Positions 24,916 to 36,326 of a DNA stretch of 37,430 bases are shown in pieces (position 1 is the stretch's first letter; the number at the start of each line of letters is the position of its first letter). A model generated the notes under the pieces. That model worked only from the letters and a program-made list of their open reading frames with translations. It had not been told where the DNA came from and did not search any database. The stretch comes from an uncultured Coriobacteriaceae bacterium (GTDB lineage: Bacteria > Actinomycetota > Coriobacteriia > Coriobacteriales > Coriobacteriaceae): NCBI GenBank assembly GCA_944322175.1, contig CALUOB010000007.1, positions 1 through 37,430 on the forward strand, given 5' to 3'. The translations under genes and the position numbers were made by a program.

Positions 24916-25728
24916 CTACAACTCGTCGGAAATCTCTTCCGAATCGTGGGAGACGCTCTTCAAGAAATACCAGTGCCCCTCGCACTGAATAGTCCATACA
25001 TCGAAATCGCTATTGTCGCTAAAGCCGTTTTCTCCCGAGATGTCGACCTTGCACACCAAGCGCTGCGCACCGGTGATACTCGACGGATCAAGCTCCAGCC
25101 CCTCAAAAGCCGTCTGGGCATCCCGCAGTACCTCTGGGTCGTCAGGAATACTCTCCACGATGTCGTACGCATACGACCAATCGGATCCGCAATATTGCTC
25201 TATGCCGGAAATTGCCGAAGCGTGCCCGTTCTCAAGATAGTCCCAATACTGCGCAATCAAGTCTTGATCATCGGCACGATCGTCTGCAGCGAGCATTTGG
25301 TAGTGCATCGAGCCGAACGCACGCGCAGCATCATCGTCCGAGCCATTCTCCATGTTGAATTGGAAATACCCGTCAACAACCTCTTCGGGAGAATCCGCTC
25401 GAGGACCGAAGTCCTTCACGGTTCGGGGCTCGCTGCTATCCTCCGGCTCGTCGGCGTCGCCCCATAAACCCGTGCTCGCTTCTCGAGAGCCCTCGTCCTC
25501 GCGCGGAGTTTCGCGCTCCTCCCGACCTGCCGCACCGCCCGAAAGAGCGCCCGATAGCGCGACACCGGCGCCGATGCCTACCGCAACAGAAGCCAGCAGC
25601 GCAATCGCAACAAGCAGCGCCCGCGGCACGCCGTTCCTCTTCGGCTTCGCCCCCTGAAGCTGCCGTCCGCACACGGGGCAGAACCTCGATCCGTCGGCAA
25701 TAACTGCCCCGCACCAAGGACATCTCAT
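24916..25728 (-). CDS. Zinc-ribbon, one-helix membrane protein with extracellular domain
   Basis: The 270-residue protein has a cytosolic double-cysteine zinc ribbon (CPWC...CPVC, residues 3-20), a membrane helix (about 36-60), an acidic linker (about 65-105) and an extracellular domain (about 110-270) ending in CEGHWYFLKSVSHDS. The DSPEEVVDGYFQFNMENGSDDDAARAFGSMHYQ start of that domain is like the NTF2/DUF4878-type domains of TcaA-like proteins. ATG at 25728 follows GAGGCGAG; the longer frame to 25770 lacks a ribosome site. Last gene of the zinc-ribbon cluster, 45 bases after its neighbour. Function is unknown. Confidence 0.8.
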   Translation of the reverse strand: MRCPWCGAVIADGSRFCPVCGRQLQGAKPKRNGVPRALLVAIALLASVAVGIGAGVALSGALSGGAAGREERETPREDEGSREASTGLWGDADEPEDSSEPRTVKDFGPRADSPEEVVDGYFQFNMENGSDDDAARAFGSMHYQMLAADDRADDQDLIAQYWDYLENGHASAISGIEQYCGSDWSYAYDIVESIPDDPEVLRDAQTAFEGLELDPSSITGAQRLVCKVDISGENGFSDNSDFDVWTIQCEGHWYFLKSVSHDSEEISDEL

Positions 25729-25773
25729 CGCACTCGCCTCTTCCCGACCGTTACCACCTTGCCAGCGCAAGCC

Positions 25774-27729
25774 CTACTCGTACTTATCCCTCACGTCCTG
25801 GTAGAGGAGGTCGGCCGTCTTAAACGACGTGACGAGAATCTCGTGCCACCCATTCCCGTAGGGGCCAAATTCGTAGGGACGCGTAACGAACACTACCCCG
25901 TCGTCGGTAATGTAGTACCGATCAGGATCGTTCACTATGTCATCGAAAGAGGCCGTGCTCGGGTCCCCCGCGCTGTATTCCTCGGGATGCTCCGCAAAGA
26001 ACTCGCGAAGCCCCGTCTCGGCAGCACTCGCCAAAGAAAGACCCGACTCCCCGTCGCCCAGAGCCTTCCCGACCGACACCTCTTCGCCCGTTCGCAAGTC
26101 ATACGTAGAGCCCGTAACCGCAGACATGCCGTGCGCGCCCCCACCGTACTCGTAACGCTCCTCGCGTACGCTTGCGATGCCATCCTTGCAATAGGTGATA
26201 TCGACGTTGTACTCCTCCGTATACATAGACGCATCGCTCGAAGTCCAGGCCCTGGCGTCCTCGACCATCTCGTCAAACTCGTCCTTGATTCTCTTGTTCA
26301 GATCCTCAAGAGCCCCCGAGGGTTCGCCCCCTGAAAACTGCGGATAACTCCAGGTCCTAGCGGTATCGGGTCCTGGGCTTTGTTCCGCATAGCTATGCGA
26401 GGCAAACGTCACCGTCTCCTCGACGACCTCAGCGGTGAAGTCGCTGTCATCGGAGCGATCTTCAGCAACGTCATCCTCTTGCTCAGTGCCATCCTCTTGC
26501 GCAGCATCATCCAGTAGCCCGCTCTTGTTGGTGAACAGATCAACATAGCTTTTTTGCTCTTCAAGCATATTGATCCGCGTTTCGTACCATGCCTTTGTTG
26601 TTTCGTCAGGATCTTTAAACTCGTCGATTATTTGTTGAACGCACGAAAGAATCCCTGACTCGTTAATCACGAGCTGATACAACAAGTACTCTCCGCGAGC
26701 ATGAACTGTAATAAGCAAATCGTAGATCGCACATTTTTGCTGAACTGCAGCATAGGACGCCGCCACGTCATCATCGTTGGGGTTCACCTCGATCTCGTCC
26801 GCAGCAGAAGACAATGCCTCCGCAACGTGCGTCAGTACCTTGATTTCTTGATACCGCTCAAAAGTGTTAGTGGTTCCAAAGGCAATATCTCCCACCAGAA
26901 TGGCGCCCTTGAAAGTGAACTCGCCCAGCGATAAGAGGGCCCCCGCTGCCTTTCCCCCATAATCAATAAGGAGCATAAGACCCTCATCGTCATAGAGGTC
27001 CGTCTTTTTGAGCAGCTCCATCGAGTAGTCTTTCATAAATGTGTCAGCCTGAAAGGACGACAATCTGCTCCAGTTGCCGAGACAGTACCTCATGCGCTCC
27101 TGAAGCAGCGACTTGTTGATCCTCAGCAAACGCCTCGCCGCGCTGCGCAAATATGCATCGCTCGAGCTGTCAACAATAGCCTGAAGAAACGCTTCCGACT
27201 CTGAATAGTCCTGCGCTATCGCCTCGATAAAATGCGCTTGATTGGCAGATTCTACAATTGCACCCGCGCCCGACACGGCAGTGTCGAATAAATCATCCAC
27301 GCCTTCGGGGAGCGTGGATCCGATAACGGTCTCCGCAAGATCGGCTACAGTCTCCCCAACCTCAGGCATTTTGATATCAGACGTCGCCGACTGACTTTCA
27401 ATCTGATTCGCCAATCCAGCTTGATGAAGAGCCATGAGTTCTGAAAGAACCTGGGCATACGTGTCTTCACTCGGGAGCACGTCGAGAGCATAGGAGGCCA
27501 GATCGATAACTTTCTCTTGCGCACCCGTGTCTTCTATGAGTGTCCAGTACCCATTGACGCTAGGTTCCCCCAAGTATTCCTGGAAAATCTCTTCGTGCTT
27601 AGCAAACCCAGCAATCGCCGATTCTCTCCAATCATCTCCAAAAGCAACCCGGGGAAGATTTGCACCCATCAAGGAGGCAGCAAGTAGCCCACACACCGCG
27701 ATACGACAGAACCGCCTTACGCCCTTCAT
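25774..27729 (-). CDS. Secreted protein with C-terminal RsiV/DUF3298-like domain
   Basis: The 651-residue protein has an N-terminal signal peptide (basic MKGVRRFCR, hydrophobic stretch, likely cleavage near residue 31), a mostly helical region (about 35-400), an acidic Asp/Glu linker (about 405-440), and a C-terminal domain (about 445-650) with YEYGGGAHGMSAVTGSTYDLRTGEEV and GVVFVTRPYEFGPYGNG, as in DUF3298/RsiV-type and PdaC N-terminal domains. Unlike its neighbours it has no zinc ribbon. Its ATG overlaps the stop of the preceding gene (ATGA), so it is coupled. Codon usage in the helical region (about 26500-27500) is visibly more AT-rich than the cluster, suggesting separate origin. Confidence 0.75.
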   Translation of the reverse strand: MKGVRRFCRIAVCGLLAASLMGANLPRVAFGDDWRESAIAGFAKHEEIFQEYLGEPSVNGYWTLIEDTGAQEKVIDLASYALDVLPSEDTYAQVLSELMALHQAGLANQIESQSATSDIKMPEVGETVADLAETVIGSTLPEGVDDLFDTAVSGAGAIVESANQAHFIEAIAQDYSESEAFLQAIVDSSSDAYLRSAARRLLRINKSLLQERMRYCLGNWSRLSSFQADTFMKDYSMELLKKTDLYDDEGLMLLIDYGGKAAGALLSLGEFTFKGAILVGDIAFGTTNTFERYQEIKVLTHVAEALSSAADEIEVNPNDDDVAASYAAVQQKCAIYDLLITVHARGEYLLYQLVINESGILSCVQQIIDEFKDPDETTKAWYETRINMLEEQKSYVDLFTNKSGLLDDAAQEDGTEQEDDVAEDRSDDSDFTAEVVEETVTFASHSYAEQSPGPDTARTWSYPQFSGGEPSGALEDLNKRIKDEFDEMVEDARAWTSSDASMYTEEYNVDITYCKDGIASVREERYEYGGGAHGMSAVTGSTYDLRTGEEVSVGKALGDGESGLSLASAAETGLREFFAEHPEEYSAGDPSTASFDDIVNDPDRYYITDDGVVFVTRPYEFGPYGNGWHEILVTSFKTADLLYQDVRDKYE

Positions 27730-28282
27730 CGCGCATCGTCCTCAGTAAGCGCATTCACAGCCTTGATAAGCTCGCTCTCGAGCACGGCCTCTTTCTCCGC
27801 GTCCTCGTCAACCATGGCAACGCTGCCGTTAGCCCTTACGACAGTCACCTCGCACGCAACGTCCACGACATCGTAGTCGCCGTTGTTTAGATGTTCCGCC
27901 ATGAACTCTTCCGGATCGCCTTCATCGAGGCTCTCACGCATGAGCACATCAAAACACGGAAGCGTCGCGGTTGCCTCAATAGTCTGCTCGCCGCTCTTCG
28001 TCGTTTCCTCTTCATTGAACGATATGTCAACCAAAGAAAGTGGGTCGATTGCGACCTTTCCCGCCTCAGCCTCCGCCTCGGCAGGACCGCTCCCGCCAAA
28101 CAGCCCGTCGAGCCGTATGACGCCAGCAAGGGCAAGAGCGGCGGTCACCCCAACAGCGGCAAGAGCAACGCCCAGCACGGCGCCGGCCGCCAAGGGCCAG
28201 CGGCGCTTGGGCGCCGGGGCGCCACACACGCCGCAGAACTTTGATCGCGCGAATTATCAGATCCGCACTTCTTGCACTTCAT
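27726..28282 (-). pseudogene. Zinc-ribbon membrane protein gene with frameshift in the zinc ribbon
   Basis: ATG at 28282 starts MKCKKCGSDNSRD, matching the N-terminus of the M4/VWA protein (MKCKKCGANISRKKKFCGVCG). At about 28240-28246 the frame breaks: a one-base deletion (or -1 shift) is needed to reach SKFCGVCGAPAPKRRWPL, which then aligns residue for residue with the paralogue. The second frame (open to 27726, about 167 codons from GTG 28229) encodes a membrane helix, then an extracellular region of about 120 residues ending ALTEDDAR. The first frame ends at 28145. Possibilities are a real pseudogene, restart at the internal GTG giving a protein without the first CxxC, or an assembly error. 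The stop overlaps the next ATG. Confidence 0.75.
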
Positions 28283-28370
28283 GACGCCTACCCACCTTGA
28301 GCTCGCATGGTTTACCCATGCCCTTAGAGGCCTCTTACCATGAGCGGCAGAAACAACCCGGCCCTGTAAC

Positions 28371-31300
28371 CTACGCCGCCGACCTACGGCGTACCAGGGC
28401 GCGGTCGATGGCAAAGATGCCGCCTCCCGCAAGCACAGTGACCGCTGCGCAGCCCGCGACCGTCAGATTTACCGCTGCGCTGTTATCTATCTTCTCGGCA
28501 TCCTCTCCGGCTTTTGCCTCGTAGACCTCGTCGAGAATACCGTCGCCGTCAATGTCGACCGTCAGGCGCGTGCGATCCGAAACCTCGGCCGTCGTGGCAA
28601 TCTCGGTCCCCTCTTCAACGTCGATGCCATCAAAGGTGCGGAAGTCGGTATAGTCGCCGTCGCTGTCGGCAAAGCCAATGGAATAGTCCATCGACCCCTC
28701 GCCGGTGCCCTCGATATCAATGTCGTACGCCGGGCCCTCTCGCAGGCGCAGCACCTTAACGGCGTCTTCCTCTGTTACATAACCGTTCTCGTCCAGCTCG
28801 TCTTCAAAGGTGATGGTGCCAAACGACGTACGCGTATTCCGATCGTCAACAGACGAATTGAGCTCCTCGCCGTCGTAGCGCACCGTCACATCAACCGGGC
28901 ATGCAGCACGCACGTACACAAAGCGCGTACCGGCAATTTCGTCTGCAATATCGGTAAAGAAGCCCTTGAGCTCGCTCGCATCGGACACCTCGTAATGGCA
29001 TCCGTCGCTCGCCATGGCCGAAAGCAGGGCATAGCCGTCGGCTCCCTCTTCAAAGCCGACCGTGTAAATCTTGACGCCCTCTTCCTTAAGCTCTTCAGCG
29101 TAGGCGATAAGCTCGTCGCCCACCATGCCCTCGTTGGGCGCACCGTCCGACATCAGCACGATGATCTGCTTGTCGGCGTCACCAGCGGCCAGTACATCCT
29201 CCGCCTTTCTCAGGCCATCCTCGATGTTGGTGTTGCCCGACGTCGAGAGACTCGCGATGCCACTCGACAGCCGCGCCTCATCGCTCGTGAGCCCTTCCAC
29301 GATCGTGGCTTCATAGCTGTACGAGACAAGACCCACGTCCGCACCGCTCGCAAGCGCCGTATCCACAAAGCCGTCGGCGCCTTTGCACATTTGGGTCATT
29401 TTGTTGCCCGACATAGAACTTGAGATGTCGAGCACCAGCGCCACGTCGCGCGTGCCCGGCCCCTCGCCCACAGGCTCGGGCAAGCTATCGGCCCCTTTCT
29501 TCTTGGTCTGCTCCACCTCGTCGCCCCAAGGGGTACTGATCGTGAGAAGATCTCGGCCGTCGTCGGCAACCATGACCATGATCTTGAAAGACTGGTCGCT
29601 GTTGGCATCTTCGACGGTAAGCCGGTAACTTACCTCGTGCTCGAACTCCAAAGGCATCGGATCCGAAGAAGTCGGCGTGAGCGTATAAGGCGACTCAACG
29701 AAATAGTCCGCCTGCCGTGCTTCGGGCTTCAGCTCAGCGCGCTCGGCGTACATCTGCGCGCCTCCCGCGTCATAATCGGCAAGCAGAATCGAGGAGTCGT
29801 CGTCACCGCTGTCGGGACCCGGCGTCGTAAGCATCGACTGCACGGTAACCGTGTAATCGGCATAGGGCTTGGAATTGACGTCGAGCACCTGGATTTTCGC
29901 GTCCTTCGTAACCCGGTAGACCTCGTCGTTGAGGACGCCGATCTTGACCTCGTCAAACGCCGCTGAGATCCGTTTGAGGTTTTCCTCGGTCATAAGATCA
30001 CTGTCGATCATGGTCTGGGCCACGCTCTCGGCAATAGCCCTGAACTGCTCGAACGTACAATCACTCGGCATCAGCATGAACGAAAGATACACGAGCTGAG
30101 CAAGCTGGTCCGTGCTGAGCTTCTCGCCGTCTAGACCGTCGCTGTTGCACATGAGATATGCCGCATGAGAGACCACCGTGCTGTTGTTATGCACGTAGCC
30201 GTTGTCGTGCTCCTCATCGGTCAGGCCAGGGTCACCCCATGCCTCATCGCCGACTTCGGCAGGATTCTTCGAATCGTCAGGTTTTGAGATGTTTCTTGAC
30301 CCTGTATGAAGCCAGTCGCAGCTATTGTCCATGCGACCGTCGTTGTAGTCCTCGACCAGTTCGCCGAAAATGTCCGAAGTTGCCTCCATTAGAGCGCCAG
30401 ATTCCCCTTCGTACACCATGGAGCTCAGCGTCGCCTCGACAGAGTGCGTAAACTCATGCGCAACGGTATCAAGGGCAATATCGTTCTTATGGCCAAAGCA
30501 AATGAACGTAATATGCGGACCCACCGTCAGCGACATGGCATTACCGGAGTCGTCTACGCCCTTAGAGGTAACAAACTTCGTTCCAGCAACGACCGTCATG
30601 CTGCCGTATTCGCCATTGAACCCCTTGCGACCGAGAACGTATCTGTAGAAGTCCAAACAGCGCTGCGTGCGCTCAAATGCTGTCGTAGCGCGCACTTTAT
30701 TGCTATCAAACAGTTCCTGCTCACTGCCCTCAATCGCCGACAGAACCGATCCGCCTACACGCACATCTGCCGCTGAGACAAACGCGCGTTCGGCGACCGT
30801 CTTACCGCCCCTCGTCAGACGGTAATACCTATTTCCCACATGCGTATCCTGCAGGCGCTTGCCATCGCTGTCGAGAAAATATGCACTTCCGCTTCCGATA
30901 ACGTCCATGTTGTACGTATTTCCGTTTTCGTCAGATCCCTCCGTATCGAAAACCTGAATCTCCTTCTCTCCGGCGTCAACCCCCAACAGGCCGCTTGCGT
31001 CGTTGCTCAACTCGTAGGAATTCTCCCCCGTCTTCCACACTTCCACGTCAACGGTATTGTCATCTTTGTCTTTGCCTGAAATTGTCTCGATGCCATCCGT
31101 CCGCATCAAATCCTCTTCGGTCAAGATCTCCCCACTCGCCGCATCGACAAAAAACGACCGAGCCTCCGAAGCACCGTAAGCATCTATTTGCCATGCAAGA
31201 GCAGGGTCATGATCGCCAAGCGAATACACGCACAAACCCGCAGGGCCCATCTGGCTCCAGTCGCCCTCATCGGCCACCGTCTCAAGCGCTTCGTCCTCAG

Positions 31301-31823
31301 TGATCTTGGGATCGGTATCCACATCGCTGATCGGCAGGTAATTGCTCGTAAGAGCTGTGGTCTCGCCGTCTTTATCCGCGCCCATAGCCACGCTGCGGCC
31401 GTACACGGGAATGCCCTCGTACATCTGGGCATATCGGTAAAACGTCGTGTCGAGCGCCTCATTGGTCTGCGAGAGGCTGAGCTGCTCGCCAACATCCTCG
31501 ATGCCAAGAGCCGAGGCAACGTCGTCGAGCGCGTCGAGCGCCGAGTCCTCGTCGGTTACCTTCACGTCGGTAAAGCCGCCATTGAGCTGCAGGTAATCAC
31601 CGTCCATGTAACCTGTCGGCCCGTTTTCGCGTTCGCCCAAGACGCGCCCAACGTCAACGACCCCCGCAAGGGCGAGGGCTGCCACTACAGCGCCTGCAAT
31701 GACAAGCACGCCGGCAATGCCGCCAACCACAAGCGGCCAACGACGCTTAGGCACAGGCGCCCCGCACACGCCGCAGAATTTCTTCTTGCGCGAGATATTC
31801 GCACCGCATTTCTTGCATTTCAC
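28371..31823 (-). CDS. Zinc ribbon - helix - M4 metallopeptidase - VWA - helix protein
   Basis: This 1150-residue protein combines, in order, a cytosolic zinc ribbon (CKKC...CGVC, 3-20), a membrane helix (about 29-55), FTP and PepSY-like propeptide regions (about 70-240), a thermolysin-type M4 peptidase (about 300-630; HEFTH at 456-460, third zinc ligand Glu480 in GALMEATSD, exactly 20 residues on), a VWA domain (about 793-965; MIDAS DISSS at 799-803, later Thr and Asp in NTNIEDG and MSDGAP) and a C-terminal helix (about 1118-1142, then RALVRRR). The peptidase should face outside and be held at both ends. GTG at 31823 has a Shine-Dalgarno (AGGTGAG) overlapping the previous stop, so it is coupled. 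Catalytic residues look complete. Confidence 0.85.
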   Translation of the reverse strand: MKCKKCGANISRKKKFCGVCGAPVPKRRWPLVVGGIAGVLVIAGAVVAALALAGVVDVGRVLGERENGPTGYMDGDYLQLNGGFTDVKVTDEDSALDALDDVASALGIEDVGEQLSLSQTNEALDTTFYRYAQMYEGIPVYGRSVAMGADKDGETTALTSNYLPISDVDTDPKITEDEALETVADEGDWSQMGPAGLCVYSLGDHDPALAWQIDAYGASEARSFFVDAASGEILTEEDLMRTDGIETISGKDKDDNTVDVEVWKTGENSYELSNDASGLLGVDAGEKEIQVFDTEGSDENGNTYNMDVIGSGSAYFLDSDGKRLQDTHVGNRYYRLTRGGKTVAERAFVSAADVRVGGSVLSAIEGSEQELFDSNKVRATTAFERTQRCLDFYRYVLGRKGFNGEYGSMTVVAGTKFVTSKGVDDSGNAMSLTVGPHITFICFGHKNDIALDTVAHEFTHSVEATLSSMVYEGESGALMEATSDIFGELVEDYNDGRMDNSCDWLHTGSRNISKPDDSKNPAEVGDEAWGDPGLTDEEHDNGYVHNNSTVVSHAAYLMCNSDGLDGEKLSTDQLAQLVYLSFMLMPSDCTFEQFRAIAESVAQTMIDSDLMTEENLKRISAAFDEVKIGVLNDEVYRVTKDAKIQVLDVNSKPYADYTVTVQSMLTTPGPDSGDDDSSILLADYDAGGAQMYAERAELKPEARQADYFVESPYTLTPTSSDPMPLEFEHEVSYRLTVEDANSDQSFKIMVMVADDGRDLLTISTPWGDEVEQTKKKGADSLPEPVGEGPGTRDVALVLDISSSMSGNKMTQMCKGADGFVDTALASGADVGLVSYSYEATIVEGLTSDEARLSSGIASLSTSGNTNIEDGLRKAEDVLAAGDADKQIIVLMSDGAPNEGMVGDELIAYAEELKEEGVKIYTVGFEEGADGYALLSAMASDGCHYEVSDASELKGFFTDIADEIAGTRFVYVRAACPVDVTVRYDGEELNSSVDDRNTRTSFGTITFEDELDENGYVTEEDAVKVLRLREGPAYDIDIEGTGEGSMDYSIGFADSDGDYTDFRTFDGIDVEEGTEIATTAEVSDRTRLTVDIDGDGILDEVYEAKAGEDAEKIDNSAAVNLTVAGCAAVTVLAGGGIFAIDRALVRRRSAA

Positions 31824-31833
31824 GGCAGCTCAC

Positions 31834-32484
31834 CTACCTTGTGCCCGCAAAGGACGCCTGAGTCGGACGGCGGCTTGTGCAATACAGTACAAGAGCAACA
31901 ACGGTCAGGCCGAGAAGTGCTATGAGCCCTGCGGCCCACTCGGCAATCCATTCCGAGAAAAACGCAGCGACGTATTGCAGAGGAGCCGTTGACGACGAGG
32001 AGGAAGCGGAAGAGGAGCCCCAAACGGTGCCCAAAACCGCCAAGCTTCCAACCAACGCGACAAGTGCAACCAGAAGCGGAAGTGTCCTGAGCAGCGGGTG
32101 CGCCAACGCCTTGCGCGATCCCAACGCAGCCCCCAGTAGTCTCAAAGCCAATAGCGCCAGAAGCACGGCAAGCGCAAGCCCCAGCGCATACCACACGGCG
32201 GTGGAAAGCACTGCCTGCGACACGTCGTACATGCCGAGAAACGCGCTCAGCTCCTCGTACCGCGCAAAGACATTGGCCCCGAAGCCGACAACGAGAACCG
32301 CTCCGAGTGCTGCGCAGGCCACGAAGAGCAGGCGGCTGCCGACCATGCCGAGGCTTGTATTGGCAAAGCTTCCCGCCTGAAAGCGACCAGAAGCCGAGCC
32401 CTGGGCTTCCGTTAGCGAAGCGCCGCAGCGCCCGCAAAACGAAGCACCCCGGGGGAGCCTGTTACCGCAACGAGGACAAAACAA
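31834..32484 (-). CDS. Zinc-ribbon protein with four membrane helices
   Basis: The protein (about 216 residues) starts with a zinc ribbon (CPRC...CGRC), then four hydrophobic segments: two before and after a short loop near LGMYDVSQAV, then LLRTLPLLVALVALVGSLAV, and a final one before a short basic tail. No enzyme motif is seen. The start is uncertain: TTG at 32484 with GGTGA 5 bases upstream gives MFCPRCGNRLP, the usual start for such ribbons; GTG at 32493 is an alternative, while 32583 would add a run without a ribosome site. It lies between the four-ribbon protein and the M4/VWA gene; its stop overlaps the latter's Shine-Dalgarno. Confidence 0.7.
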   Translation of the reverse strand: MFCPRCGNRLPRGASFCGRCGASLTEAQGSASGRFQAGSFANTSLGMVGSRLLFVACAALGAVLVVGFGANVFARYEELSAFLGMYDVSQAVLSTAVWYALGLALAVLLALLALRLLGAALGSRKALAHPLLRTLPLLVALVALVGSLAVLGTVWGSSSASSSSSTAPLQYVAAFFSEWIAEWAAGLIALLGLTVVALVLYCTSRRPTQASFAGTR

Positions 32485-32508
32485 CGCAATCACCGACCAT
32501 AAACAGCA

Positions 32509-32528
32509 CGCGCCCCCAAGGGGGCGCG
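32509..32528. repeat. Strong GC hairpin inside the zinc-ribbon cluster
   Basis: CGCGCCCCC and GGGGGCGCG form a perfect 9-bp stem with a 2-base loop between the stop of the four-ribbon gene and the start of the next gene. There is no T tract, so it is more likely an RNA-stability or pausing hairpin than an intrinsic terminator. Confidence 0.5.
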
Positions 32529-32543
32529 CCGACAGACCAATCG

Positions 32544-33476
32544 CTACAAATACAGGCTGTACCGCATAGGATCGAGATACCAATGTCCGTTGCTCTTGAC
32601 CACGCCGATCGTCATGGTGCGCTCTTCCTCGTCGTCGCCGTCCTTGTCGACAACGGTAACCTCAACCTCATACTCTCGGCCCTCGGACACATCGGGTACG
32701 TCCGCCTCGGCGTCGTCGTAGAAATCCTCAACATCCTCAAGCTCACTGTCGCGGTACGGGTCTTCGTCCACGATCTCGTACTCATACGTCCAGCCCTTGC
32801 CGTACAGATCGGCCATAGTATCGAAGCTGTTCTCGCGGTTCTCCTCGATCCAGTCGCGCATGTCCTCGTCGTCGTAGTTCGCTTCGTCCATCACAGCGTT
32901 CACATACGCCGGATCCATAAAGGGCATGCTGTCGTAGCCCGTATCTTCGTTGAGACAGAACTCGAGGTAATCCTTCACCACATCCTCGGGATTGTTGCCG
33001 CGGAAGAAGATGAAGAAGATGCCGACTGCTGCCAGCACGACTACGGCAACGACCGCCACGGCACCGATGCCGATAGCCTTATAGTTGGCAGCCTTCTTCT
33101 GCTTCACCACGTAGCCGCACGTAGGACAGGCCGAGGCGCCCGAAGGCAGAGGGCTCCCGCACTGCGGGCACGTGCTTCCCATGGCACCGGCTGCACCTGC
33201 CGAGCCTGCACCGAAGCGATGCCCGCACGACGGGCAGAAGCTCGCCCCCGCCGGCAGCGGAGCGCCGCACTGGGGGCATACTGCGGGCATGGACGGAGAA
33301 GCTGTGGCGCCAGTCGCCGAAAGCGGACGACCGCAAACACCGCAGAATTTGGTTCCGGGCTTTACCGGAGCGCCGCAGCCCGGGCATACCGCGCCCTGCT
33401 GCGGAACCTGGTGTCCGCACGAGGGACAAAACGCCGAGCCATCGGGAATGACCGAGCCGCACGAGGGGCAATTCAT
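32544..33476 (-). CDS. Membrane protein with four tandem double zinc ribbons and an extracellular domain
   Basis: The 310-residue protein has eight CxxC motifs in four repeating modules (about 3-21, 31-49, 67-85, 103-121; patterns CPSC-CPSC, CPGC-CGVC, CPQC-CPSC, CPQC-CPTC), each following a 'G..(I/L)P.G..FC' spacing. A lysine cluster and a membrane helix (about 134-160) follow, then an acidic extracellular domain (about 163-310) starting NPEDVVKDYLEFCLNEDTGYD and ending in VVKSNGHWYLDPMRYS, NTF2-like as in TcaA-type proteins. The Shine-Dalgarno GGGTAGG overlaps the stop of the upstream gene. The tandem ribbons suggest a cytosolic platform for binding a partner. Function unknown. Confidence 0.82.
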   Translation of the reverse strand: MNCPSCGSVIPDGSAFCPSCGHQVPQQGAVCPGCGAPVKPGTKFCGVCGRPLSATGATASPSMPAVCPQCGAPLPAGASFCPSCGHRFGAGSAGAAGAMGSTCPQCGSPLPSGASACPTCGYVVKQKKAANYKAIGIGAVAVVAVVVLAAVGIFFIFFRGNNPEDVVKDYLEFCLNEDTGYDSMPFMDPAYVNAVMDEANYDDEDMRDWIEENRENSFDTMADLYGKGWTYEYEIVDEDPYRDSELEDVEDFYDDAEADVPDVSEGREYEVEVTVVDKDGDDEEERTMTIGVVKSNGHWYLDPMRYSLYL

Positions 33477-33482
33477 CTTTAC

Positions 33483-34145
33483 CTACCCTTCCAGTTTATG
33501 GCCGCATGACATGCAAAACGTGCTCTGAGGCTTATTGGTTGCCCCACATGCAGGGCAGATCTTTGCCGCCTGCGCCGCGGGAGGCGTCACCAGCACGGCA
33601 CCCATTGGCGCGGTCTGCTGCTGCGCAGGAGTCACCGGCTGGGCAGGCACCGTCGGTTGGACCGGTGCCGCCGGTATCGTCTGTCCGCAGCTCATGCAAA
33701 AGCGATCCCCCGCGTTAATGGGCGAGCCGCAATTTGGGCACAGCGTGGTCCCGGCAGAAATGGAGGGCTGCGAAACCGCCATGTCCGATCCGCAGTACGG
33801 GCAGAAGCGAGAGTCGCCGTTTACCTCGCGATGACAGATCGGGCACACCCGCCGCGTTTGAACCGTCATCAGCTGTTGTTGCAGACTTGAGATTTCAGCA
33901 TTGAGGCTATCGACGAGTGCGACCTGACCTTTAAACTCGGCAGTGGCATCCCCGTGATGTCTCTGACAATATGCTTGGCCGATCTGCTCGTAGATCCCCT
34001 GAATGCGCTTCCTGCGCTCCTCTATGGACGAATTGATGCGCGCGGTCTCGCCAAACTCGCGCGCTCGACCGCCGATCCCCTGAGTAAATCCCGTAACGCG
34101 CCGGCCGATCTCGCTAAATGCGCTATCGATGGTGATATCTGCCAT
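33483..34145 (-). CDS. Soluble coiled-coil protein with three double zinc ribbons
   Basis: The 220-residue protein has no membrane helix. Residues about 10-95 are helical and charged (IGGRAREFGETARINSSIEERRKRIQGIYEQIGQAY..., LVDSLNAEISSLQQQL), likely a coiled coil, followed by zinc ribbons CPIC...CPYC, CPNC...CMSC and, after a Pro/Gln/Val-rich linker, CPAC...CMSC at the C-terminus. ATG at 34145 follows GGGAGG at 6 bases. It opens the operon that continues with the four-ribbon membrane protein 6 bases later. A cytosolic partner or adaptor for the zinc-ribbon membrane proteins is a reasonable guess. Confidence 0.82.
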   Translation of the reverse strand: MADITIDSAFSEIGRRVTGFTQGIGGRAREFGETARINSSIEERRKRIQGIYEQIGQAYCQRHHGDATAEFKGQVALVDSLNAEISSLQQQLMTVQTRRVCPICHREVNGDSRFCPYCGSDMAVSQPSISAGTTLCPNCGSPINAGDRFCMSCGQTIPAAPVQPTVPAQPVTPAQQQTAPMGAVLVTPPAAQAAKICPACGATNKPQSTFCMSCGHKLEG

Positions 34146-34625
34146 GCATCCTCCCGGTCGTTCCCAAGCGACACGTGCAAAACCGAGCCTCAAGCTGCTA
34201 TCAGCGGCTGGAAAAGCGCCGAGCAGCGCATGAGCAGATACTCTCGACCGCAGGACTGGATCCGCTCATCAAAGTCTATTGTCGACCACATTTTCTGCAC
34301 AAATCCAAACTTATACTACACGACCCCGCAAGCACAAATGAGCACCTTCGAGATTTGTTACGTTTTAAGGCACAGGGCAGCATCCGCGAGCCAGATCCCT
34401 CCGTCCTTCTCTGGCTCGCTTGAGCACATACCACCGTGTTCACGCTCAATGCACTCTGCGATCGAGATGTCCCAGTCCCGCAAGAGAACCGACCGCTCCG
34501 GCCCGACCGTTGCGAGGCACCGTCTTTTGAGGCAAAGCGCTTCCCGTTGCGTAACATTTGAGCGCATGTCCTAACGAGCGCAGCCAAGGCAGTCCGAACG
34601 GCATCCAGCAAATGACAACTGCCTT
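34146..34625. other. AT-richer intergenic stretch with no confident gene
   Basis: This region of about 480 bases precedes the 33483-34145 gene and must contain its promoter, though none is convincing. Short open frames exist on both strands (for example a 69-codon one at 34358-34567, minus, containing RDWDISIAECIEREHGG), but they lack ribosome sites and recognisable motifs. Base composition is less GC-rich than the surroundings; it may be remnant DNA. Confidence 0.5.
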
Positions 34626-34644
34626 CCACCCGCTGAGCGGGTGG
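34626..34644. repeat. Hairpin 1 of a tandem pair
   Basis: CCACCCGC-tga-GCGGGTGG, a perfect 8-bp stem with 3-base loop, 7 bases away from a second hairpin. Paired, closely spaced subterminal hairpins like this are found at the ends of IS200/IS605-type elements and in REP elements; that link is inference, since no transposase is present. Confidence 0.6.
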
Positions 34645-34651
34645 GTTTCCA

Positions 34652-34672
34652 TGCCGCGCGTACCGCGCGGCA
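34652..34672. repeat. Hairpin 2 of a tandem pair
   Basis: TGCCGCGCG-tac-CGCGCGGCA, a perfect 9-bp stem with 3-base loop, next to hairpin 1 and 25 bases from the terminator at 34697-34737. Confidence 0.6.
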
Positions 34673-34696
34673 CAGGCTAAAGTCTTGAAATCACAA

Positions 34697-34737
34697 GCAA
34701 AAGCCGCCCGCAACCATATTGGGTTGCAGGCGGCTCA
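34697..34737 (-). terminator. Intrinsic terminator of the 34767-36209 gene
   Basis: On the minus strand AGCCGCC-TGCAACC pairs with GGTTGC-GGGCGGCT around an AATAT-type loop and is followed by TTTTGCTT. It lies about 30 bases past the stop and separates this gene from the zinc-ribbon operon downstream. Confidence 0.85.
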
Positions 34738-34766
34738 ACAGTCAAACAGCCAGAGCTGATGAAGCG

Positions 34767-36209
34767 CTAGCGCAGCGTGATGCAGTCAGCCATGGTATCG
34801 CCCAAGATACTCATAGGCTGAGTAAACATACTCGAACTACCGCTCGTCGACTTGTACGTGTTGAGCATAGTGTCGTAGCTGTACGTTCCCATGGTTTGCA
34901 GATCCACGAGCTCGCGTGCCTCGTCCATGGAGTAGTATGTGTCGGGATTGCTCGAATTGAGCGAAGCGTAGTAAGCGATGAGATAGCTGTAGTTGGTCAT
35001 GCGCACGACAACACGCTGAGACCCACTGATGGCAGAATAACAGGAACTGTTGGCAACATCACCCGCACTGTTTCCCGAACTCGCTGACTCGACTTCGATA
35101 GAGCACACCTTGCGCGACGGATACGCGCTCGAGTAGATGTTTGTCGTGTTGCCGCTCTGGGTCCACGTCACACGGCCGCGCCAGTACACGGGCACCGTGA
35201 ACTCGTAGTAGTTAGAAGTGACCCGGTAGGCCGCCTCCTCCTGCTCGGCACGGCGGCGCGTCTCCTCCTCCTGCGCCCTGCGATTCTCCTCCTCAACGGC
35301 ATCGTCGCGCCACTTCTCGGCAGCGCTCTTAAGATCGTCTGCCTGGTCCTTGGTGTCGCAGCCGCCGTCCACCGCGCAATCATAGGCACGCTGAATATCG
35401 TCGTCGGTTACGTCGAGCGCATCTGCCAGCTTGAACTCCAGAGGGAAAGCGCCCGACATGGACACGCTGCCGTCTTCCTCAATATCAAGCGCGACCTTGT
35501 CGTCAGGGCACGCGTACAGCGTTCCGTCTTCGCCAAAGGGCGAGGCGGCGACTGACAGCTCGTACGAACCGGGCAGCAGGCTCAGCCCCTCGCCGTCGTC
35601 GTCAACGTACTGGATCTCGTCGACGTCGTTGTCGTCGTAGTCGGTGCCCGTAACCTGCACGGGAACAAGCGAGCCGCTGTCAGGATCGTAGTTGGGAATA
35701 TCCACCTCAAAGGGAACCTCAACAGGCTCGGGCTCGCCCTTGATGGCGTTGATCACCACATTGCCGCCGCCCTCAGACGAATCGGAACCCAAGAAGAGAA
35801 ACACGCCAACTGCAGCTGCCACAGCGACTACGGCGCATACAACGGCAACGATAACCCCCGTATGCAAGCGTTTCTGCGGTGCAGGGGCGGCATACGGATC
35901 AGCCTGCCCAGCACCTGTCGGTGCTGCTGCATGAGGCATCACAACGGTATGATCTGCACCGCCTACAGCGGCAGATTGCTGGGCAGCAGGAGCCTCATAT
36001 CCAGAAGTGCCCGCAGGACTCTCCTGCTCCCCATCCTTAGGCTCAAGAGGAGCGTGAAGCTCGCCGTCTTTGGGCTCGGGAACACGCGTCTCCTCTTCTG
36101 CCGTATCGTGCTCGCCCGACGTAACGTCCGAGGCCTCGACCGGCTTTCCGCACGCAGTGCAGAACTTGCTTCCCTCTGGTATCTCGGCACCACAGCCTGT
36201 GCAGAACAT
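34767..36209 (-). CDS. Zinc-ribbon, one-helix membrane protein with coiled coil and extracellular domain
   Basis: The 480-residue protein has an N-terminal zinc ribbon (CTGC...CTAC, 3-20), a long acidic, Pro/Ala-rich cytosolic linker with a duplicated EPKDGE motif (about 45-62), a membrane helix (about 117-140), an Asp-rich beta region (about 150-270), a Glu/Arg-rich coiled coil (about 310-345, EEENRRAQEEETRRR) and a C-terminal domain (about 350-480) starting YYEFTVPVYWRGRVTW and rich in Ser/Tyr. ATG at 36209 follows AGAGGAG at 6 bases. It is monocistronic, with its own promoter and terminator, but shares its layout with the operon downstream. Function unknown. Confidence 0.8.
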   Translation of the reverse strand: MFCTGCGAEIPEGSKFCTACGKPVEASDVTSGEHDTAEEETRVPEPKDGELHAPLEPKDGEQESPAGTSGYEAPAAQQSAAVGGADHTVVMPHAAAPTGAGQADPYAAPAPQKRLHTGVIVAVVCAVVAVAAAVGVFLFLGSDSSEGGGNVVINAIKGEPEPVEVPFEVDIPNYDPDSGSLVPVQVTGTDYDDNDVDEIQYVDDDGEGLSLLPGSYELSVAASPFGEDGTLYACPDDKVALDIEEDGSVSMSGAFPLEFKLADALDVTDDDIQRAYDCAVDGGCDTKDQADDLKSAAEKWRDDAVEEENRRAQEEETRRRAEQEEAAYRVTSNYYEFTVPVYWRGRVTWTQSGNTTNIYSSAYPSRKVCSIEVESASSGNSAGDVANSSCYSAISGSQRVVVRMTNYSYLIAYYASLNSSNPDTYYSMDEARELVDLQTMGTYSYDTMLNTYKSTSGSSSMFTQPMSILGDTMADCITLR

Positions 36210-36261
36210 GGCGCTCCTCTCAACGCATGAACGTACGCACGCTATCGAATTTGCATCTATC

Positions 36262-36267
36262 AGTATA
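36262..36267 (-). promoter_or_regulatory. Putative -10 box of the 34767-36209 gene
   Basis: TATACT on the minus strand, five of six consensus, about 53 bases before the ATG; no good -35 box. A palindrome lies just upstream of it. Confidence 0.4.
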
Positions 36268-36271
36268 CGCA

Positions 36272-36285
36272 GACATTGGAATGTC
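36272..36285. promoter_or_regulatory. Palindrome in the promoter spacer, possible operator
   Basis: GACATT-gg-AATGTC is a perfect 6-bp-arm inverted repeat, located in the -35/-10 spacer of the zinc-ribbon gene's proposed promoter. A repressor bound here would block RNA polymerase. Confidence 0.35.
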
Positions 36286-36326
36286 CCAGGGCGCAAAATG
36301 GTGACTGCCGCACGAGTTTGCGAACG

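Follow-up and report, generated by a model that had tools for sequence, protein, structure and literature searches.

An M4 peptidase gene of Coriobacteriales shares a VWA-CTD-TM module with unrelated hydrolases and lies beside a gene for a candidate membrane partner

The window, a 37,430-nucleotide stretch of DNA from an uncultured Coriobacteriaceae bacterium, encodes an M4 metallopeptidase that continues into a VWA domain, a region of ~156 residues (the CTD) and a last transmembrane (TM) helix. The constant part of this architecture is the VWA-CTD-TM module, not the peptidase or the zinc ribbon at its N-terminus: the module is shared with other hydrolases, the catalytic and metal-binding residues are intact, and the gene upstream is conserved. 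We propose, with a probability of roughly 0.45, that the two genes form a surface enzyme system in which the VWA-CTD-TM part would mount the hydrolase and dock it to the upstream polytopic zinc-ribbon protein. The enzyme gene and its parts are:

28371..31823, minus strand: M4 peptidase-VWA-CTD protein, 1150 aa, GTG start (single open frame without internal stop)
31752..31820, minus strand: zinc ribbon, residues 2-24, four Cys, predicted cytosolic (Pfam and alignment)
31647..31742, minus strand: N-terminal transmembrane helix, residues about 28-59 (hydropathy, which in one reading extends it to 28-63)
31341..31466, minus strand: FTP propeptide motif, residues 120-161 (Pfam, 3.4e-8)
31116..31307, minus strand: PepSY propeptide, residues 173-236, a weak match (Pfam, 18.1 bits, under the cut-off)
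30438..30941, minus strand: M4 N-terminal catalytic lobe, residues 295-462, with HEFTH at 456-460 (Pfam, alignment)
29940..30425, minus strand: M4 C-terminal helical lobe, residues 467-628, with Glu480, Asp540 and His545 (Pfam, 2.1e-22)
28956..29447, minus strand: VWA domain, residues 793-956, full MIDAS D799-x-S-x-S803, T865, D893 (Pfam, 2.7e-20)
28488..28955, minus strand: CTD, residues 957-1112, conserved, with a DxDGDGxxD loop at 1090-1098 (profile searches)
28404..28466, minus strand: C-terminal transmembrane helix, residues 1120-1140, with a positive tail (hydropathy)

The domain order thus runs zinc ribbon, TM, FTP, PepSY, M4, VWA, CTD and C-terminal TM. Pfam, phmmer and hydropathy agree with the initial annotation in placing M4, FTP/PepSY, VWA, two anchors and a zinc ribbon in one chain; profile searches recover both M4 (M4_C, 2e-22) and VWA (3e-20), and HEFTH, Glu480 and the MIDAS motif DISSS stand exactly as first described. 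Neither the CTD between the VWA and the last TM nor the linked upstream gene was mentioned there. The FTP match exceeds the Pfam cut-off, PepSY stays below it (18.1 bits vs 24, E 0.0035), the Peptidase_M4 N-lobe scores 20.9 bits in one scan and 25.1 in another (cut-off 22.4), and Zn_Ribbon_1 reaches 21.6 bits vs a cut-off of 25 with all four cysteines in place. When five M4-VWA sequences are aligned, these cysteines (3, 6, 17 and 20) are invariant, as are H456, E457, H460, E480, D540 and H545 and the MIDAS residues D799/S801/S803/T865/D893, and a single position of HEFTH 456-460 varies; the M4 catalytic motif is found in six M4 versions.

The best PDB match is the thermolysin precursor (2.7e-22, phmmer), whose FTP region and catalytic domain are matched separately, and D540 and H545 are the equivalents of thermolysin Asp226 and His231. 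The protein has the features of the M4 family (both lobes, HExxH, the Glu ligand, the catalytic His and an FTP/PepSY propeptide), and with thermolysin-type enzymes (MEROPS M4) it shares FTP plus PepSY, HExTH, the second Glu ligand, the Asp226/His231 equivalents and both lobes; unlike them, it adds a type II anchor with a zinc ribbon, the VWA-CTD and a C-terminal TM. Structure prediction from two input sequences gave a pLDDT of 29 for the whole protein and 41 for the VWA-CTD, both too low for a reliable model of how peptidase and VWA pack. Cysteines at 942 (VWA) and 975 (start of the CTD) are kept in nearly all module copies and could form an interdomain disulfide.

A genome of the same genus (G002) holds a 93% identical orthologue with the same domain order, a copy that is also present in L002, a public contig from an uncultured Collinsella sp.; three further genomes carry M4-VWA relatives at 39-44% identity with the order kept, and a sixth copy, of the same layout, lies in G421. 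A frame error joining two genes was rejected because the layout is intact in these relatives and the single frame has no internal stop. Between the window and L002, dN/dS is 0.11 for the whole protein, 0.06 for the VWA and 0.05 for the CTD, values from one sequence pair, so that differences between domains are only indicative; the window gene is under purifying selection.

Across 397 Coriobacteriales genomes, M4_C matched 38 times in 31 genomes and only 6 matches were followed by VWA-CTD, so that the M4-VWA architecture is rare. Most other M4 proteins of the order are ~620-860 aa long and lack a VWA, and the eight genomes with such proteins that we checked have their VWA domains elsewhere or not at all. 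Many of these proteins have lipoprotein-like N-termini (judged by eye), which goes against the initial premise that M4 peptidases are as a rule secreted and released from their propeptide: in Coriobacteriales these enzymes are commonly attached to the cell, and the rare feature is the VWA-CTD fusion. Two VWA-less M4 proteins also carry a zinc ribbon, namely L086, a zinc ribbon-TM protein of 955 aa from a different genus of the order (G383) that matches M4_C, and a second M4 protein at L002:9092-12733 (zinc ribbon-TM-FTP-M4 with a PdaC/DUF3298 end).

A profile of VWA-CTD was used to follow the distribution of the module: 11 genomes in a set of 398 from the class carry it, as do 14 in a set of 397 from the order Coriobacteriales; most genomes are fragmented, and these counts of modules and genes are minima. 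For the phylum, an evenly drawn sample of 396 genomes gave only two further matches, both weak, in polytopic proteins and limited to the VWA and the first part of the CTD; no genome from another order matched farther into the CTD than this. No VWA-CTD was found in viral contigs and only separate VWA or M4 matches on plasmids, and these two collections, which were the material searched outside Actinomycetota, held no M4-VWA and no VWA-CTD-hydrolase protein. A match in Monoglobus was rejected as a member of the system (453-aa VWA protein, no hydrolase). The CTD itself has no Pfam family, and a PDB profile search with it gave no match below E 0.5.

Module copies with other enzymes are 42-52% identical to the window copy. 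They are joined to a subtilase in G133 (Peptidase_S8, 8e-35), to SGNH/GDSL hydrolases in G039 and G276 (by Pfam) and in G357, G423 and the truncated G454 (by motifs), and to a class-3 lipase (lipase_3) in G044. Wherever the enzyme part is complete its catalytic motifs are kept (the S8 triad, the SGNH motifs and, in the lipase, GxSxG, to which the check was limited there), and the MIDAS residues are invariant in 10/10 module sequences spanning the four enzyme types. The N-terminal part differs: the M4 and S8 versions start with a zinc ribbon and a helix, whereas the esterase and lipase versions have a signal-peptide-like start (one with a lipobox-like end) and no ribbon. All enzyme versions have the C-terminal TM helix, which makes it the constant anchor. 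On the question of repeated swaps of enzyme type, the module tree has an unresolved backbone.

The genes around the window enzyme are:

31834..32484, minus strand: candidate partner, zinc ribbon + 4-5 TM protein, ending 10 bases before the enzyme gene
32544..33476, minus strand: protein with four zinc ribbons + one TM, same cluster (Pfam, hydropathy)
33483..34193, minus strand: soluble protein with three zinc ribbons, same cluster (Pfam, hydropathy)
25774..27729, minus strand: 651-aa protein with a PdaC/DUF3298 end, downstream, same strand (Pfam)
24916..25770, minus strand: zinc ribbon + one TM protein, downstream, same strand (Pfam, hydropathy)

In every one of the ten complete loci (M4, SGNH and lipase), the partner gene precedes the enzyme gene, either immediately or with a single small gene in between; G357, whose locus is split over two contigs, keeps the arrangement too. 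Outside the window genus, partners are 18-30% identical to the window copy, and because of this high divergence the homology test excluded the ribbon and the nearest relative. Each of the ten partners then scored higher than 17 unrelated polytopic ORFs, 50 shuffles and its own reversed sequence. Across 20 genomes, the partner profile gave strong full-length matches at the module loci and at one extra place (G044:C97); the matches at the ten module loci follow from how the profile was built, and it could overlook a partner that has diverged strongly. The G044:C97 match was outside the profile build and stands directly before a second lipase copy. Eight module-free genomes gave only ribbon-sized or otherwise partial matches. 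In that second partner-lipase pair (L119:1-1233), the lipase has an early in-frame stop and the contig ends inside its gene.

The subtilase locus has upstream only an 84-aa zinc-ribbon mini-protein, which was rejected as a partner, being indistinguishable from shuffles. At SGNH loci, an extra single-TM gene of ~225 codons lies between partner and enzyme (L033:5475-6146, L040:1413-2087 and L055:4050-4813; the two of these three that were tested had no clear Pfam match). Finally, a single chain combining a zinc ribbon, several TMs and VWA-CTD is encoded on contig C16 of the window genome (and on C81 of G002). Scored with the partner profile, the membrane part of the C16 protein reaches 8.3 bits vs a best of 1.4 in 200 shuffles, which is suggestive, though not proof, of a partner-module fusion. 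This C16 paralogue (L037:7087-11334, 1415 aa) has a zinc ribbon, ~six helices, VWA-CTD, two helices and a long C-terminal part, and the calcium-like loop of its CTD is degraded.

It had been suggested that the zinc ribbon could report or control the state of the peptidase. This idea is not supported: ribbons are plentiful in the genomes concerned, and neither the esterase nor the lipase versions have one. Almost every gene at 24916-36296 (minus strand) of the window has a zinc ribbon, a run largely kept in L002, and of the 12 module-carrying genomes covered by a profile search, 11 have 14-32 ribbon matches each and the remaining one (G039) has 4; the window genome has 22. Given this abundance in genomes and cluster, and ribbons on the VWA-less M4 proteins of L002 and G383, the ribbon is a general membrane-protein feature of the lineage, not a device specific to the M4 peptidase. 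TcaA-like Gram-positive proteins likewise have an N-terminal zinc ribbon, a single TM and an extracellular part; the window protein shares this layout, but its ectodomain is an enzyme with a VWA, and it has no match to the TcaA model NF053815.

Since the module and the upstream membrane protein stay constant while the enzyme varies, the simplest reading is that the VWA binds the partner or that both belong to a joint complex. The VWA-CTD-TM would then serve as a shared mount that keeps a hydrolase on the outer side of the membrane, docked to the upstream partner through the VWA metal site or sitting with it in one surface complex, and the enzyme, hence the substrate, would be the exchangeable part. 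The M4 version would be exported as a membrane-anchored precursor; known M4 family chemistry predicts that it removes its own FTP/PepSY propeptide, with which the N-terminal anchor would also be lost, and the mature enzyme would stay on the cell by the C-terminal helix alone, where it may digest proteins at the cell surface. The two membrane anchors first described are indeed predicted by hydropathy, but the N-terminal one may be transient if autoprocessing removes it. The ligand, the partner binding and the activity are inferred.

If this is true, it shows how gut Actinomycetota use a single surface fixture to carry digestive enzymes of different kinds, and the pair would offer a simple two-gene system for asking what bacterial VWA domains bind; the CTD and the membrane protein family could also be used for finding further such enzymes. 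At somewhat less than even odds, we further suggest an undescribed, interchangeable surface-enzyme platform of Coriobacteriales, in which the polytopic zinc-ribbon protein would bind a VWA-CTD-TM fitted with at least four unrelated hydrolases (M4, S8, SGNH and class-3 lipase), as a bacterial counterpart of the CLCA peptidase-VWA and its membrane partner. The main enzyme and VWA domains are known, and their combination with the CTD and the upstream gene was not found in the Pfam, PDB and literature searched; the literature search returned nothing on M4-VWA or on Collinsella VWA.

VWA domains with a full MIDAS commonly bind extracellular ligands, and the main rival, which we consider rather unlikely, is that the VWA is an adhesin: it would tie the hydrolase on the cell to one shared external ligand (mucin, host matrix or a cell-wall polymer), and each enzyme would digest whatever the cell has settled on. 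The enzyme types, all ordinary degradative hydrolases, would suit this, and so would animal CLCA1. In this protein a zinc metallopeptidase precedes a MIDAS-bearing VWA and a beta-rich domain; it processes MUC2, which is cleaved by the N-terminal product containing the catalytic and VWA domains (PMC6851300). The adhesin reading nevertheless leaves unexplained why the upstream membrane gene is constant across enzyme types. The same CLCA1 VWA is reported to interact in a MIDAS-dependent manner with the polytopic ion channel TMEM16A (PMC6851300). CLCA1 appears to be the closest functional parallel in the literature: it shares the order of metallopeptidase, MIDAS VWA and further domain with the window protein, but is a secreted HEXXE zincin (vs the M4 motif HEFTH) and has no zinc ribbon. 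Because the catalytic motifs differ, we regard it as an analogue, not a relative; the CLCA model TIGR00868 matches only the VWA of the window protein. In CLCA proteins a BSR domain comes after the VWA; the region at that place in the window protein, the CTD, gave no Pfam or PDB match. We do not favour the earlier suggestion of a VWA that keeps a substrate next to the peptidase, possible though it is, as the same VWA-CTD occurs with four hydrolase folds that are unrelated, and the element that does not change is the upstream membrane protein.

Zinc-ribbon proteins are abundant in these genomes, with several in the same cluster, and the VWA-CTD might accordingly be a passive spacer or stability module, with a gene order that reflects a general zinc-ribbon cluster and not a complex. 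We find this improbable: the MIDAS is invariant across 10 sequences, the VWA and CTD have the lowest dN/dS of the chain, and the non-partner zinc-ribbon proteins at the loci nearly all have 0-2 TMs, the clear exception being the C16 protein, which itself has VWA-CTD. Least probable of all is a sensor made of VWA-CTD and partner, in which a ligand or metal at the VWA would control the hydrolase and the ribbons would signal inside, for although the ribbons of the partner and of the peptidase versions are on the predicted cytosolic side, the SGNH and lipase enzymes have none, ribbons are generic in the lineage and no known signalling domain is linked.

Known anti-phage defence was rejected, as the enzyme, the partner and the downstream gene match no PADLOC model. 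Other Coriobacteriales surface proteins also have a MIDAS VWA (L011, a 3129-aa frame), but this one is 36% identical over the VWA stretch and no hydrolase domain was noticed in the stretch read. Just downstream of the window enzyme, in the zinc-ribbon + TM gene at 27726-28282 (minus strand), the reading frame is broken inside the ribbon, with the ATG start and the second CxxC in different frames, reflecting either an assembly error or a broken gene. The counterpart of L002:9092-12733 in the window, at 25774-28282, is only a remnant plus the 651-aa protein with the same PdaC/DUF3298 end, a contrast indicating that this place has recombined.
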